The position numbers and the translations under genes are program-made. Shown here in pieces: positions 1 to 32,128 of a stretch of 32,128 bases of DNA. The first letter of the stretch is position 1. Each line of letters opens with the position of its first letter. Origin of the DNA: an uncultured Clostridia bacterium (GTDB lineage Bacteria > Bacillota > Clostridia > Oscillospirales > Acutalibacteraceae); NCBI GenBank assembly GCA_947169745.1, contig CAMVQZ010000016.1, positions 1 through 32,128 of the forward strand, given 5' to 3'. Under the pieces are notes generated by a model, which did no database searches, was not told the DNA's origin, and saw nothing but the letters and a program-made list of their open reading frames with translations.

Positions 1-251
1 TGCACCCGTGTTCGGTGCGTGCTCGCACTGAGCAATTCGCGTTATCGCTCGTTTACACTCGCTCTGTCGTGCGTACATAAACTACCGTCGCGCGGCATCC
101 GGCGCACACCGTCTCAGATAATACTCCCACCCTCCGCCGCCGCACCCCTCACAGGCTGCTTCTTGCGGCTGGGTTATTCTGGCTTCTACCATTTCACTCC
201 CCTGTCACTGAGCGCCTGTTTTCTCCCGGAATTATTTTGCAGCGTGAACGC
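1..251 (+). repeat. Structured intergenic repeat family, tandem copy 1 (left array, truncated by window edge)
   Basis: Positions 1-144 are identical to 252-395; the remaining ~105 nt are similar but diverged. Related to sequences at 31826-32128, 8826-9016 (rc) and 12389-12496 (rc). Confidence 0.93.
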
Positions 252-497
252 TGCACCCGTGTTCGGTGCGTGCTCGCACTGAGCAATTCGCGTTATCGCT
301 CGTTTACACTCGCTCTGTCGTGCGTACATAAACTACCGTCGCGCGGCATCCGGCGCACACCGTCTCAGATAATACTCCCACCCTCCGCCGCCGCAGCCCT
401 CACGGGCTGCTACCTGCGGCTGGTTTACTTTGACTTCTGGCTTTTCAATCTTCTGACAGCAAGCGCCTTTTTATCCCAGAATTATTTTACACTAACC
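252..497 (+). repeat. Structured intergenic repeat family, tandem copy 2 (left array)
   Basis: Second unit starting TGCACCCGTGTTCGG at 252 (period 251); ends ...AGAATTATTTTACACTAAC like the right-hand array unit. Confidence 0.93.
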
Positions 498-5270: not shown

Positions 5271-8200
5271 ATGAAACTTCTGAATGATGTGCTGAATAAA
5301 ACAGAAGAATACAGGACGCTGGAAAAAGCTGTCGGGAGAGGACAGACTCCGGCAATGGCCACAGGACTTTCCGGGGTACACAAGGCTCACCTGATATATA
5401 CCATGTGTACAAGGCTGGGGAGACGGGCGCTGGTGCTGGCAGCGGATGAAATAGAGGCGGTAAGGCTCTGCGAGGATATCTGCGCCATGGGAAAGAAGGC
5501 GGTATTCTATCCCTCCAGAGACTTTACCTTCAGAGAGGTCGCCGGTGTTTCCGGAGAGTTTTCTCACAAGAGGATAGGAGCCCTGTTTTCCTTTGTCTGC
5601 GGAAGCTGCGATATCATCGTAGCCTGCGCGGATGCGGCTCTCCAGTATACCATACCTATGGATACCCTGAAAAAATATACTGGCGTATATCGTCAGGGAG
5701 ACGAGGTCTCAATGGAGGAGCTGGTGTCGGTGCTGGAAGGCTGCGGCTTCAGCAGAACGGATAATGTGGAGGGCACAGGGCAGTATTCTGTCCGGGGAGG
5801 CATACTGGATATCTTTATCCCCGGAAAAGCCATGCCCTGCAGAATAGAATTCTGGGGAGATGAGATAGACACCATATCTGAATTTGACCCGGAGACCCAG
5901 AGAAGAACAGACCCTGTGGAGGAATTTACCATAACCCCCTCAGGAGAGCTGCTTATAGCTGACAGGGAGGAGCTTGCGGAAAAGATCGAAGCAAAGGCCT
6001 CAGCCCTGAGAGGAAAAAAGGGAGCCGCCGCAAAGGAAATAATGAAAAAGGAAGCGGAGGCTGTCAGAGCAGGTCAGATGCTTACCTCCATCGACAAGTA
6101 TTATTCCCTTATATACGAAACACCTGCCACGCTGTATGATTATTTTGATGATAATGAGATAGTTTTTGTATCAGAACAGCCTGCGCAGAAGGACAGAGTA
6201 AGAGCTGTTATGACCCAGTGGAGTGAAGATCTGGAGGATTACGTCAAGGAGGGTATCCTGTGCCGGGGACTTGACAGCTTCAGTATGGAATGGGAGTATC
6301 ATCTTTCTGCTCTTTCCCAGCGGGACACTGTATTTATTGATAATTTCACCAGAGGCAGCTGTGAGCTCCCTCTGAGAGAACTGGTCAGCTTTACGGCAAA
6401 GCAGCTCTCTGTCTGGAGCGGCTCTCTCAGCGTATTGTGCGAAGAACTGGACGGCCTCGTTTCCCGGAATACCGTCTGCGTCATCCTTGCCGGAACAAAA
6501 AAGAATGCCGGAATACTGTGCGATGAACTGAGGGAAAAGGGCTATGACGCTGTAGAAGCGGACGAAAACACCGAACCCGGAAGCGGCGGACTGTTTGTCG
6601 CTCCCGGCTCTCTCAGCAGGGGCTTTGAATATCCCCACGCAGGCTTTGCGCTCATAACCCACGGAATTTCTCTTTCTGCCGCAAAGAAAAGCAAAAAGAA
6701 AAAACGGAAAAAGGGAGCGATATTCGCCCTGGAGGATCTGTCTCCCGGAGATTTTGTTGTCCACAGCAACCACGGCATAGGACAGTTTATGGGTGTGGAA
6801 AAAAAGGAGATACACGGCATCGTAAAGGATTATATAATAATCAGATATGCCGGAGGCGGGTCACTGTTTGTGCCTGTCACCCAGCTGGATATGATCGCTA
6901 AATATATAGGGCCGAAGGAGGAAACAGTGGTAAAGCTCTCAAGACTGGGAAGCGACCAGTGGTCAAAATCCAAGGCAAGAGTAAGAAAGGCAGTCAAGGA
7001 TATTGCCGATAAAATGATAAAGGTCTATTCCGAGAGAATGAAGGCAAGAGGCTTTGCCTTTTCTCCCGATAACGAATGGCAGAGAGATTTCGAAGCCAGG
7101 TTTGAATATGAGGAAACAGACGACCAGATAAGGTGCATATCGGAGATAAAGGAGGATATGGAAAAGGTCGTCCCGATGGACAGACTCCTTTGCGGAGATG
7201 TGGGCTTCGGAAAAACAGAGGTTGCTCTCAGGGCAGCCTTCAAATGCGTTACAGACGGCAAACAATGCGCGATTCTTGTACCCACTACCATTCTCGCCTG
7301 GCAGCACTATCAGACGATACTGAGAAGATTTGAGGGGTATCCCGTGAATACAGAGCTGCTCTCCAGATTCCGTACCCCGAAGCAGCAGGCTGAAATAATC
7401 AAAAAGCTCAGACAGGGAGATATCGACATAGTTGTGGGAACCCACAGACTTGTGCAGAAGGATATCGAATTCCGGGATATCGGACTTGTTATCATTGACG
7501 AGGAACAGCGCTTCGGCGTTGAACAGAAGGAAAACTTCAAGGAAAAATACAGCAGTGTGGATATACTCACCCTGTCGGCAACGCCTATCCCCCGGACGCT
7601 TAATATGGCAGTATCGGGAATAAGGGATATGTCGTCTCTGGAGGAGGCTCCCCAGGACAGATATCCGGTGCAGTCCTATGTTCTGGAATATGACGACGCC
7701 GTTATCCACGAGGCGATAAGAAAAGAACTTCGCCGGGGCGGACAGGTCTTTTACCTCTTTAACCGCGTGGAGGGCATAGAGGAAAAAGCGGCGGCTATCT
7801 CAAAGGCTGTTCCTGAAGCTGTAGTGGGAGTAGGACACGGCAAAATGAGCGAAGGAGAGCTTTCCGACGTATGGCGCCGTATGCTGGAGCAGGAAATAAA
7901 TGTCCTTGTCAGTACCACAATAATAGAAACGGGAGTGGATATCCCCAATGCAAACACTCTTATAATCGAAAATTCCGACAGAATGGGGCTTTCACAGCTT
8001 CATCAGCTGAGAGGAAGAGTGGGAAGATCCACAAGAAGAGCTTATGCGTATTTCACCTTCCCAAGGAACAAGGCTCTCAGCGAGATATCCCAGAAAAGGC
8101 TGGAGGCTATCCGGGAATTTACCCAATTCGGTTCGGGCTTCCGTATCGCAATGAGAGATCTGGAGATAAGAGGAGCCGGAGATATGCTGGGAGCTCATCA

Positions 8201-8735: not shown

Positions 8736-8825
8736 GGAATAACTGAATAGTAATGGTGTCGCTTCTGTTATAGAAAGCTTATGAGTAATGGAAGTTCTTA
8801 CGGTTTTCAATTAGTTTGTAAATAA

Positions 8826-9016
8826 AAATGGAGTGGACTACCGGAAGTCAGAATAAACCGGCCGCAGGAAGCAGCCCGTGAGAGGTGCGGCGGAGGAGGG
8901 TGTGAGTGTTGTCCGGGGTAGTGAGCGCCGGATGCCGCTGCACGAAAGCTTGTTTATGAATAACATAGCGATTGTAAACGAGCGATTATACGAACATGGG
9001 TCCGGCGTCACGCCGG
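8826..9016 (-). repeat. Degenerate full-length copy of the structured intergenic repeat family (minus orientation)
   Basis: Reverse complement (CCGGCGTGACGCCGGACCCATGTTCG..ATCGCTCGTTTACA.TCGCT..TTTCGTG..GCGGCATCCGGCGC..CTCCGCCGCACCTCTCACGGGCTGCTTCCTGCGGC) aligns along most of its length with 31826-32063. Confidence 0.85.
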
Positions 9017-9041
9017 GCGCGGAATTTTTTTAAAATTTTTG

Positions 9042-9070
9042 TGGACTTTATGCAAGAATTGTTATATAAT
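9042..9070 (+). promoter_or_regulatory. Sigma70-type promoter for foldase-like lipoprotein
   Basis: TGGACT (9042-9047), 17 nt, TATAAT (9065-9070); A/T-rich tract AATTTTTTTAAAATTTTT directly upstream (UP-element-like). Confidence 0.65.
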
Positions 9071-9113: not shown

Positions 9114-10271
9114 ATGAAAATAAAAAGTATCGTTAAACCTGTGGCTGTGCTTGGTGCATTTGCAGTGCTTATGTCTGCAGCCGGATGCGCTGATACCTCG
9201 TGGAGCTATAAGACAAAGGATAAGACCCTCTCAAACGGCACATGGATATACTATACTTACTCCGCCACAAACGAGGCTATCCAGAAATACGGCGAGGAAA
9301 ATAAGGACGATGACGGCAACAGCAAGACTATAAAAGTGAGCGATTCAAAATTCTACGATTATAAAGTAGAAGGAAAGAAAATGGCTGACTGGATCAAAAA
9401 CAAGGCAAAGCAGAGATGTCTTGAGGCTCTTACAGTGGATAAGCTCCTCAAGGAGAATAAGGTCGAATATGACAAGAAGCCGATTGAGGATTACAGAAAG
9501 CAGTATATTTCATATATGGAGAAAAACGGAAACGATCTCTTTACAACGCTGGGCGTTTCCACCGGCACGATCGCAGACTGCTCTGTCGTTTATCCTCAGC
9601 TTTCAAATGAGCTTTTCAAATATTTCTACGGCAAGGGCGGCCCCAAGGAGGTCACCGACGAGCAGCTGAAAAAATTCTATACCGATAACTATACGGATTA
9701 TTACTATATCCCCTATACCTTTACAACTACAGGCTCAGACGGCAACAAAACCGATATAGAGGATTCCGAAAAGGATAAGGTAAAATCAAACTTCGGAAAA
9801 TATGCCAAGGAGCTTAACGAGGGCAAGAAAAAGACAACCGATATTGATGAGGAATATAAGAAGGATTTCGAGAAGGAAAAATCCGACAGCGTTTCTGATA
9901 CAGCGGATCTTTCAAAATCCTCTCTTCCGGAAAAGCTTCAGGAGGCTATAAAGGCTCTTGGCAGCAAAAAGGCTGATGTCAAGGAAATCGACGGTGTTTA
10001 TTACCTTATATATAAGGGAGATATCAACGAAAAGGCCGCAAAGATAAAGTCAACAGAGGATAAGGATTCCTCGGATTCAGAGCAGGATACAGATGCTGTA
10101 TCGAGAGAGACTGTTCTCAGGGCTATGAAGGATGACGACTACAAATCATATCTTGAAGAAGAATGCAAGAAACTCAAATATGATACCAATGATGCTTGTC
10201 TTTCAAAATATACAGTAGAAAGAACTGTTGACATCGTTAAAAATGAGGAAGCTAAGCAGGCAAGTGCCTGA
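9114..10271 (+). CDS. SurA/PrsA-like (foldase-type) lipoprotein
   Basis: Likely start at the internal ATG at 9114 (AAAGGAAGAACCAG RBS) rather than ORF start 9039; lipobox LMSAAGC; SurA-N-like helical region; located after mfd as often seen in Firmicutes. No clear parvulin active-site motif. Confidence 0.65.
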   Translation: MKIKSIVKPVAVLGAFAVLMSAAGCADTSWSYKTKDKTLSNGTWIYYTYSATNEAIQKYGEENKDDDGNSKTIKVSDSKFYDYKVEGKKMADWIKNKAKQRCLEALTVDKLLKENKVEYDKKPIEDYRKQYISYMEKNGNDLFTTLGVSTGTIADCSVVYPQLSNELFKYFYGKGGPKEVTDEQLKKFYTDNYTDYYYIPYTFTTTGSDGNKTDIEDSEKDKVKSNFGKYAKELNEGKKKTTDIDEEYKKDFEKEKSDSVSDTADLSKSSLPEKLQEAIKALGSKKADVKEIDGVYYLIYKGDINEKAAKIKSTEDKDSSDSEQDTDAVSRETVLRAMKDDDYKSYLEEECKKLKYDTNDACLSKYTVERTVDIVKNEEAKQASA

Positions 10272-12388: not shown

Positions 12389-12496
12389 GCCGCGCGACGA
12401 GAGTATATGTACGCACGACAGAGCGAATGGAATGAGCGATAACGCGAACACGCTCAGTGCGAGCACGCACCGAGGCACGCACCGAGGCACGCACCG
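12389..12496 (-). repeat. Partial copy of the structured intergenic repeat family (minus orientation) with 12 bp tandem units at its promoter-facing end
   Basis: Reverse complement contains GTGCGTGCTCGCACTGAGC..GCGTTATCGCTC..TCGCTCTGTCGTGCGTACATATACT.TCGTCGCGCGGC as in 1-100; 12-nt units GAGCACGCACCG/AGGCACGCACCG/AGGCACGCACCG at 12461-12496. Confidence 0.85.
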
Positions 12497-12502
12497 CCTG
12501 TA

Positions 12503-12531
12503 TTGACTTATGGATGAATTTATGGTTTAAT
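12503..12531 (+). promoter_or_regulatory. Sigma70-type promoter for V-ATPase operon
   Basis: TTGACT (12503-12508), 17 nt, TTTAAT (12526-12531), upstream of first ntp gene. Confidence 0.65.
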
Positions 12532-31153: not shown

Positions 31154-31193
31154 AAAAGCACTCCCTGTATCAGACCTGGGGAGTGCTTTTTTT
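31154..31193. terminator. Bidirectional rho-independent terminator between convergent tsaD and tetR-like gene
   Basis: AAAAGCACTCCC (31154-31165) / GGGAGTGCTTTT (31179-31190) then TTT; A-rich left flank. Confidence 0.82.
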
Positions 31194-31760
31194 GTTATCC
31201 GGATTCATATAACGGGCGACCGCCAGACGCTGACAATCGCTTACCAGATTTTCAATATGTGCCGTAATGGTCTCAGGCGGCTCCTTCATTCCGCCGGTGA
31301 CCCACGAGATAATACTGCCGGTTATTCCGTAAGCGAAAAATCTTGCAATAAACTGCTTATCCTCCTCGGATACCACATAGTTGCCGGAAACATCCTCAAT
31401 AACAGATACAAATACATTTGAGCTGACTTTATGCAGGTATTCCCGGAATTCCTCGCTATATGAAGTCCTCAGTGCATTCGCATAGAATCTGGAGCCGTCC
31501 CTTATGGTATGAAGCAGGGTCAGAAGCTTATCTGTCCAGGTGTCAAAGCTCAGTCCGTCTACAAACGGCTCTATGGCTTCATTATAGAATATCCAGTTCA
31601 GAAGCTCGTATTTGTCCTGAAAATGATAATAAAATGTCTGCCGGTTCAGGCCGCATTCTGAGGTGATATCAGATACTGTTATTTTTGCAAAAGGCTTTCT
31701 CTCCATCAGCTCTTTAAAGCCCCGGGCTATGGAATTTTTTGTTTTTATAGAATCAGACAT
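31170..31760 (-). CDS. TetR/AcrR-family regulator (DhaS-like)
   Basis: N-terminal HTH TKNSIARGFKELMERKPFAKITVSDITSECGLNRQTFYYHFQDKYELLNWIF; probable start MSDSIKT at 31760 with GGAGG RBS. Confidence 0.9.
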   Translation of the reverse strand: MSDSIKTKNSIARGFKELMERKPFAKITVSDITSECGLNRQTFYYHFQDKYELLNWIFYNEAIEPFVDGLSFDTWTDKLLTLLHTIRDGSRFYANALRTSYSEEFREYLHKVSSNVFVSVIEDVSGNYVVSEEDKQFIARFFAYGITGSIISWVTGGMKEPPETITAHIENLVSDCQRLAVARYMNPDNKKSTPQV

Positions 31761-31793: not shown

Positions 31794-31821
31794 ATTGTAT
31801 CACATTTTCCCCATTTGTAAA
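31794..31821 (-). promoter_or_regulatory. Candidate sigma70-type promoter for tetR-like gene
   Basis: Minus strand TTTACA (31821-31816), 16 nt, TACAAT (31799-31794). Confidence 0.5.
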
Positions 31822-31825
31822 CCAG

Positions 31826-32063
31826 GCAGCGTGACGCTGCACCCATGTTCGCGTTATCGCTCGTTTACACTCGCTCTGTCGTGCGTACATATACTTTCGT
31901 GGCGCGGCATCCGGCGCGCAGTACCTCAGACAATACTCCCGCCCTCCGCCGCCGCAGCCCTTACGGGCTGCTTCTTGCGGCTGTTATATTCGGACTTAAA
32001 GAGTTTCACTTCCCTGACAGTAAGCGCCTGTTTTCTCCCAGAATTATTTTACACTAACGACGC
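31826..32063 (+). repeat. Structured intergenic repeat family, right array unit (25 bp internal deletion relative to left array)
   Basis: Starts with hairpin GCAGCG-TGA-CGCTGC; TGCACCC to next TGCACCC period is 226. Confidence 0.92.
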
Positions 32064-32128
32064 TGCACCCATGTTCGCGTTATCGCTCGTTTACACTCGC
32101 TCTGTCGTGCGTACATATACTTTCGTGG
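32064..32128 (+). repeat. Structured intergenic repeat family, next tandem unit (truncated by window edge)
   Basis: 65 nt identical to 31838-31902. Confidence 0.92.

Follow-up and report, generated by a model that had tools for sequence, protein, structure and literature searches.

The hairpins in the window (the whole stretch of 32,128 nucleotides analyzed here, which is one entire contig, C16, of a 2.53-Mb draft genome) very likely form the promoter-proximal terminus of a non-autonomous, MITE-like element that depends for its movement on an ISLre2-family transposase (p-MULT3, PF06782, Mutator superfamily) supplied in trans. Sharp ends, target duplications, orientation relative to the target, an end shared with a partner insertion sequence, orthologous promoters free of the element and covariation of the stem were each shown by sequence comparison. 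The stem truly covaries, and what this covariation points to is the end of a transposon, not a known RNA.

Compensated changes in the terminal hairpin

The initial annotation had compared three hairpins, and these were found letter for letter as quoted: the window reads GCAGCGTGACGCTGC at 31826-31840, the reverse complement of 9002-9016 is CCGGCGTGACGCCGG, and 239-254 is GCAGCGTGAACGCTGC, which has the TGAA loop described (GCAGCG-TGAA-CGCTGC). The first two differ, as claimed, at two stem pairs in which both partners changed, and they have a common flank, ACCCATGTTCG, directly after the hairpin (in reverse complement for 9002-9016).

The own genome was searched with a pattern, SCRGCGTGMCGCYGS, in which the letters of the two variable pairs may pair or fail to pair. 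It gave 174 matches with a TGA or TGC loop, and the reversed control gave 0. Among the 100 of these places that were listed, 93 are fully paired, with G..C (69) or C..G (24) as the outer pair, and the outer pair is broken in 5, where approximately 40 would be expected from the letters of the listed places if the two ends were independent. A wobble copy among the listed places, CCGGCGTGACGCTGG, is a G.T intermediate between CCAGCG..CGCTGG and CCGGCG..CGCCGG, the latter being the stem at 9002-9016.

A wider sample of 171 distinct copies was anchored on sequence inside the element, pairing not being a criterion. A perfect 6-bp stem was observed in 105 of these copies, whereas an exchange of arms among the copies would predict 20.5, and a further 21 or so have a perfect 5-bp stem, mostly GTGCG-TGCT-CGCAC. 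Stem types include GCAGCG, CCAGCG, CCGGCG, GCGGCG, GCGGAG, GCGCAG and GCACAG, and the apex GTG(A/C)C around which they form is nearly invariant (GTG.C). The initial annotation had proposed a wide alignment of copies with covariation statistics as a check, and the compensation holds when 68 distinct rows are aligned: paired cells make up 81.6%, versus 65.1% in shuffles (sd 1.3), 64 cells are changed on both sides, versus 25.8, and the covariation score is 0.351, versus 0.143 (sd 0.015) in shuffles and at most 0.149 in a control with partners slid by 1 to 3 columns. In the same alignment, 4 pairs have a double change and 11 pair types occur, neither number being above that of the shuffles, because the columns hold few letters. 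The rows are kin through transposition, and the alignment cells are therefore not independent events. The suggestion that the stem is maintained, and not incidental, is supported by compensated changes across species, element subfamilies and genomic sites. As single DNA strands the hairpins are stable, at −4.8 to −6.8 kcal/mol.

A possible explanation of the pairing, to which we give somewhat less than even weight, is that mutation itself keeps it: template switching or gene conversion between the arms corrects palindromes, and hairpin types spread as whole cassettes, with double changes arriving as units. This concerns the cause of the pairing; it overlaps with the identification of the element, and the two are not mutually exclusive. 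The hairpin types are indeed few and discrete, and the copies are kin by transposition, but several stem types were found on one interior family, within one genome as well as across several species, and at several genomic places. Loop type is linked to the next four bases (TGA or TCGA with ACCC, TGC with TGTC), as cassettes predict; the spread of cassettes leaves unexplained, however, why each of them is a hairpin of the same geometry. That an autonomous element functions without the hairpin (see below) also favors this explanation, whereas one-sided intermediates, which exist and are rare, count against it. So does the retention of the stem where interiors differ at approximately 26% of sites, with 13 of 306 stem cells unpaired in a set restricted to copies having at least four of the six pairs.

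At five loci of one genome (G006; L227, L249, L259, L264 and L268), the hairpin carries an insert of approximately 25 nt, CCAGC-GTGACGCGCCCGGAGGAAGTGCCCTTGGGGT-GCTGG. The outer pairs are retained, and the insert is able to pair internally.

Ends of the element and insertion beside promoters

The element is 85 to 260 nt long and MITE-like, with interiors that vary between species. The hairpin is its extreme tip, in support of the earlier description as the terminal hairpin of a repeat family. The opposite, distal end is CCCAGAATTATTTTACACTAAC and has a sharp boundary with unique flank beyond. In the own genome, this end was counted 31 times when one position was left free. It recurs in numerous contigs whose titles read “uncultured Ruminococcus” or Clostridiales, most of them from RUG genomes, and it is absent from all 119 other genera of the family that were sampled. 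The bacteria that carry this small mobile element are Ruminococcus-like and from the rumen. The repeat gave 87 BLAST matches in the own genome, many in tandem and at contig ends. With the full 246-nt repeat as the query, relatives matched at the ends only, hence the picture of an element whose ends are conserved and whose interior changes. The copies in the window are given in Table 1.

Table 1. Element copies, hairpins and adjoining features in the window
Feature	Position	Strand	Details
Complete MITE-like element	31826..32058	+	From the hairpin end at 31826 to the right end ...CTCCCAGAATTATTTTACACTAAC at 32058; family-type sequence at both ends
Terminal hairpin GCAGCG-TGA-CGCTGC, promoter-proximal end	31826..31840	+	
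Outward promoter beside the hairpin	31794..31821	-	TTTACA (31816-31821), 16-nt spacer, TACAAT (31794-31799); 10/12 matches
TetR-family regulator gene, served by the TTTACA promoter	31170..31760	-	TetR_N 8e-10, TetR_C_8 2.7e-27; putative start 31760 (after GGAGG), longest ORF from 31787
Tandem second copy, start only	32059..32128	+	Half a hairpin and then an exact 70-nt match to 31833-31902; cut by the contig end
Older element copy	8811..9016	-	Degenerate right end TTTACAAACTAAT at about 8811
Terminal hairpin CCGGCG-TGA-CGCCGG	9002..9016	-	
Outward promoter TGGACT-17-TATAAT	9042..9070	+	10/12 consensus matches; gene downstream begins near 9114
Tandem element copy	239..496	+	Hairpin 239-254 (GCAGCG-TGAA-CGCTGC), right end ACACTAAC at 496
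Preceding tandem unit	1..238	+	Cut by the contig start; right end ...GGAATTATTTT abuts the hairpin at 239
Partial copy, other hairpin type GTGCG-TGCT-CGCAC	12389..12496	-	
Promoter after the partial copy	12503..12531		TTGACT (12503-12508)-17-TTTAAT (12526-12531)

Direct repeats of at least 6 nt abut both ends in 20 of 73 copies, against a mean of 1.8 and a maximum of 5 in 200 permutations, and those of at least 8 nt do so in 11 of the 73 (null, 0.7); 41 copies have no direct repeat. The lengths peak at exactly 9 nt, and examples are AACTAAAGG (L242), ATCGCTGCG (L224), TTCAGTGAG (L152) and TGCAGTGCG (L067). Since the duplications abut the base of the hairpin, the element begins directly with the hairpin. 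A retro-type insertion, prompted by seemingly variable duplications, was dropped in view of the peak at 9.

Members of the ISLre2 family insert in one orientation, 15 to 17 bp upstream of the −35 box of σA promoters (PMC3942029). We called a promoter when at least 9 of the 12 consensus letters matched, with a spacer of 16 to 18, within 75 nt of an element end. An outward σA-like promoter was observed on the hairpin side at 43 of 60 sites, mostly with a distance of 12 to 17 nt to the −35 box, compared with 10/57 outward on the other side, 18/60 and 5/57 in inward searches and 7.5/60 in shuffles. The insertions share one orientation relative to the promoter, with the hairpin end promoter-proximal. 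The scatter of distances is wider than published, and at some sites the −35 box is 4 to 10 nt or over 20 nt away. When 20 further hairpins of the own genome were scanned, many belonged to rearranged copies without a recognizable distal end, and the promoter and duplication counts therefore cover only copies with a recognizable distal end.

The three window copies whose hairpin end adjoins single-copy sequence (31826, 9016 and 12496) all face an outward promoter. The distances are 4 (from the start of the hairpin to the −35 box TTTACA), 25 and about 6 nt, respectively; given this variation, the old or rearranged copies of the window alone do not show the 15-17 rule. At the tip of the partial element, a 12-nt unit, GCACGCACCGAG, is present in 2.8 tandem copies (12463-12496), which would suit an expansion of the tip.

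At a putative greA gene of the own genome (named from sequence), the element lies 17 nt upstream of TTGACA, and comparison by eye of the orthologous gene start in five sister genomes revealed the promoter without the element. A search with joined flanks for an empty site at the species level gave no match spanning the junction, because intergenic DNA is too diverged.

These insertion sites bear on the RNA reading of the initial annotation, which was not upheld. That the stem acts within a transcript, as a structured RNA or a transcription terminator, is most improbable: the stem is GC-rich and covarying with a fixed loop, and it is intergenic and high in copy number, as such a reading would have it, but the flank on the hairpin side is a promoter firing away, so that transcripts start beside the element, which lies upstream. 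Moreover, a U-tract is absent beside the hairpin, exact target duplications stand at its base, and Rfam gave no match to the element at gathering or even permissive thresholds. Among the one-sided changes in the 171-copy set, five give G.T on the given strand and three give A.C; the wobble pairs therefore favor neither strand. The other reading offered, a cruciform or protein site, is retained in a narrower form, the hairpin being in all likelihood the promoter-proximal end of a promoter-targeting ISLre2 (Mutator-like) transposable element.

The partner insertion sequence and known systems

In sister genomes, some distal ends belong to an insertion sequence of approximately 1.6 kb with a 477-codon gene that reads away from this end. 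The product matches PF06782 (E 1.2e-40), also designated UPF0236, which we take to be the ISLre2 transposase. The distal end CTCCCAGAATTATTTTACACTAAC is identical in elements and insertion sequences (L099/L274 and L125/L273), and the insertion sequence copy L099 is flanked by CGAGCCCAG on both sides. The two ends of the insertion sequence read GA(T/C)N-GTGTCAAGTAGTTCTGGGA and GTTA-GTGTAAAATAATTCTGGGA, and the element apex has the GTG core in common with them (GTGTCAAG / GTGTAAAA); the core is set back from the tip by five nt in the elements and by four in the insertion sequence.

In the insertion sequence, the end that faces the promoter is the one on the 3' side of the transposase gene (IRr). 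In this autonomous element the promoter-side end has no hairpin and only the inner core (TGTCAAG-type) is present; the hairpin is therefore not required by the transposase in general. The promoter-side end of the small elements is 10 nt longer, begins with G or C and retains only the core, as GTG in the apex and as a second end core (TGTCAAG, or decayed ACCCATG) just inside the hairpin, an arrangement that would fit the addition of a tip beyond the canonical one. The last base of the distal end is C. The interiors of the elements are no obvious deletion derivatives of the insertion sequence.

A PF06782 gene is present in 6 of 61 genomes of the genus and was not found in the window's own draft genome, and family membership therefore rests on the ends, the duplications and the target. 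Multi-copy insertion sequences are often missing from such draft assemblies, and the source of transposase for the own genome may be in trans, lost or unassembled. A matching transposase in the own genome is expected for current mobility and is not needed for descent.

The ISLre2 family has direct repeats of 8 to 9 bp, inverted repeats of 18 to 39 bp at both ends, a terminal C, an IRr that adjoins the promoter and a circular transposition intermediate (Guerillot et al. 2014, PMC3942029). The present elements resemble it in the PF06782 transposase of the partner, repeats of 8 to 9 bp, oriented insertion approximately 16 bp upstream, the promoter-side IRr and the distal terminal C. They differ in having no transposase gene, in size, high copy number and tandem arrays, and in the replacement of the promoter-side end by a covarying hairpin. 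TnGBS integrative conjugative elements share the transposase group and the targeting upstream of promoters (PMC3942029), but they are conjugative, occur in streptococci and reach tens of kb, and a hairpin tip is not described for them in that paper. Bacterial MITEs such as Correia elements (PMC10969869) are likewise short, non-autonomous, intergenic, multicopy and near promoters; in contrast, the two ends of the present elements are dissimilar and insertion follows the position of the promoter. The review of prokaryotic MITEs (PMC10969869) has no entry for ISLre2, IS256, Mutator or a hairpin, and no description of MITEs of the ISLre2 (promoter-targeting Mutator) type was found in the open-licence papers searched. 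The transposase family and its promoter targeting are already known, from insertion sequences and conjugative elements.

REP/BIME-like palindromes moved by a Y1 (RAYT/IS200) transposase, or a host protein site at promoters, can be given little credence: palindromic hairpins in short intergenic copies, more than 170 per genome and in tandem mosaics, do resemble them, but a target duplication length that peaks at 9 bp fits DDE chemistry and not Y1, the same end is carried by a PF06782 insertion sequence, promoter targeting is unlike REP/BIME, and the stem is free in sequence, unlike a sequence-specific operator. REP/BIME with RAYT is characterized by a Y1 transposase and, at the foot of the hairpin, a GTAG/CGTC tag; no such tag is evident in the 68-row alignment. 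HUH/IS200-like transposition, prompted by the hairpin and an end without inverted repeats, was dropped in view of the 9-nt duplications and the PF06782 partner.

Proposed movement and tandem arrays

We propose that an ISLre2-type transposase moves the elements in trans and would recognize two features of them, the distal end, which is conserved, and the GTG core. The tip nucleotides around this core would be free in sequence as long as pairing is kept. The foldback tip, presumably as extruded or single-stranded DNA in a strand-transfer or circle intermediate, may help the hairpin end to serve as the promoter-side end. What is new is the hairpin tip, which the autonomous element does not have, and its role is one that we infer. 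The ends of DDE transposons are normally read as double-stranded sequence, so that a covarying hairpin at such a tip would be unusual.

With tens of copies per genome in the genus, located beside promoters, the elements evidently fragment assemblies. They are also a natural data set for the question of how the orientation of insertion is determined by nearness to the promoter and by unlike ends, and a warning that covariation by itself is no proof of RNA.

Tandem arrays may have formed by repeated insertion at one promoter-measured place, followed by recombination. Repeated insertion would give arrays such as L216, in which TACACCGCC followed by the element is repeated, because every insertion re-creates the original distance through its promoter-side duplication; arrays from unequal recombination would have a similar appearance. 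Many arrays of the own genome have an inner junction ...AATTATTTT(A)|hairpin, for example at 238-239 of the window and at L016, L017 and L058. This junction, which recurs at many loci, is the distal end minus its last seven or eight bases (ACACTAAC).

Many copies in the own genome are mosaics or inverted composites. L301 (G000:C22, about 5823-6077) is a tandem array of the hairpin-side module only, with a 120-nt period and no recognizable distal end, and L290 (G000:C7) is an array of the same module with a period longer than 120 nt, also with no recognizable distal end. In genome G006, five loci (L225, L254, L256, L257 and L268) have one common left flank, GCGGGGGCTTTCCGGTCGCCCCCGC...TTGATTTCCGTG, and ACGGAAATCAACTTTCTT recurs adjoining distal ends in RUG11824 contigs; judged by their recurrence, these are another repeat family adjoining the elements.
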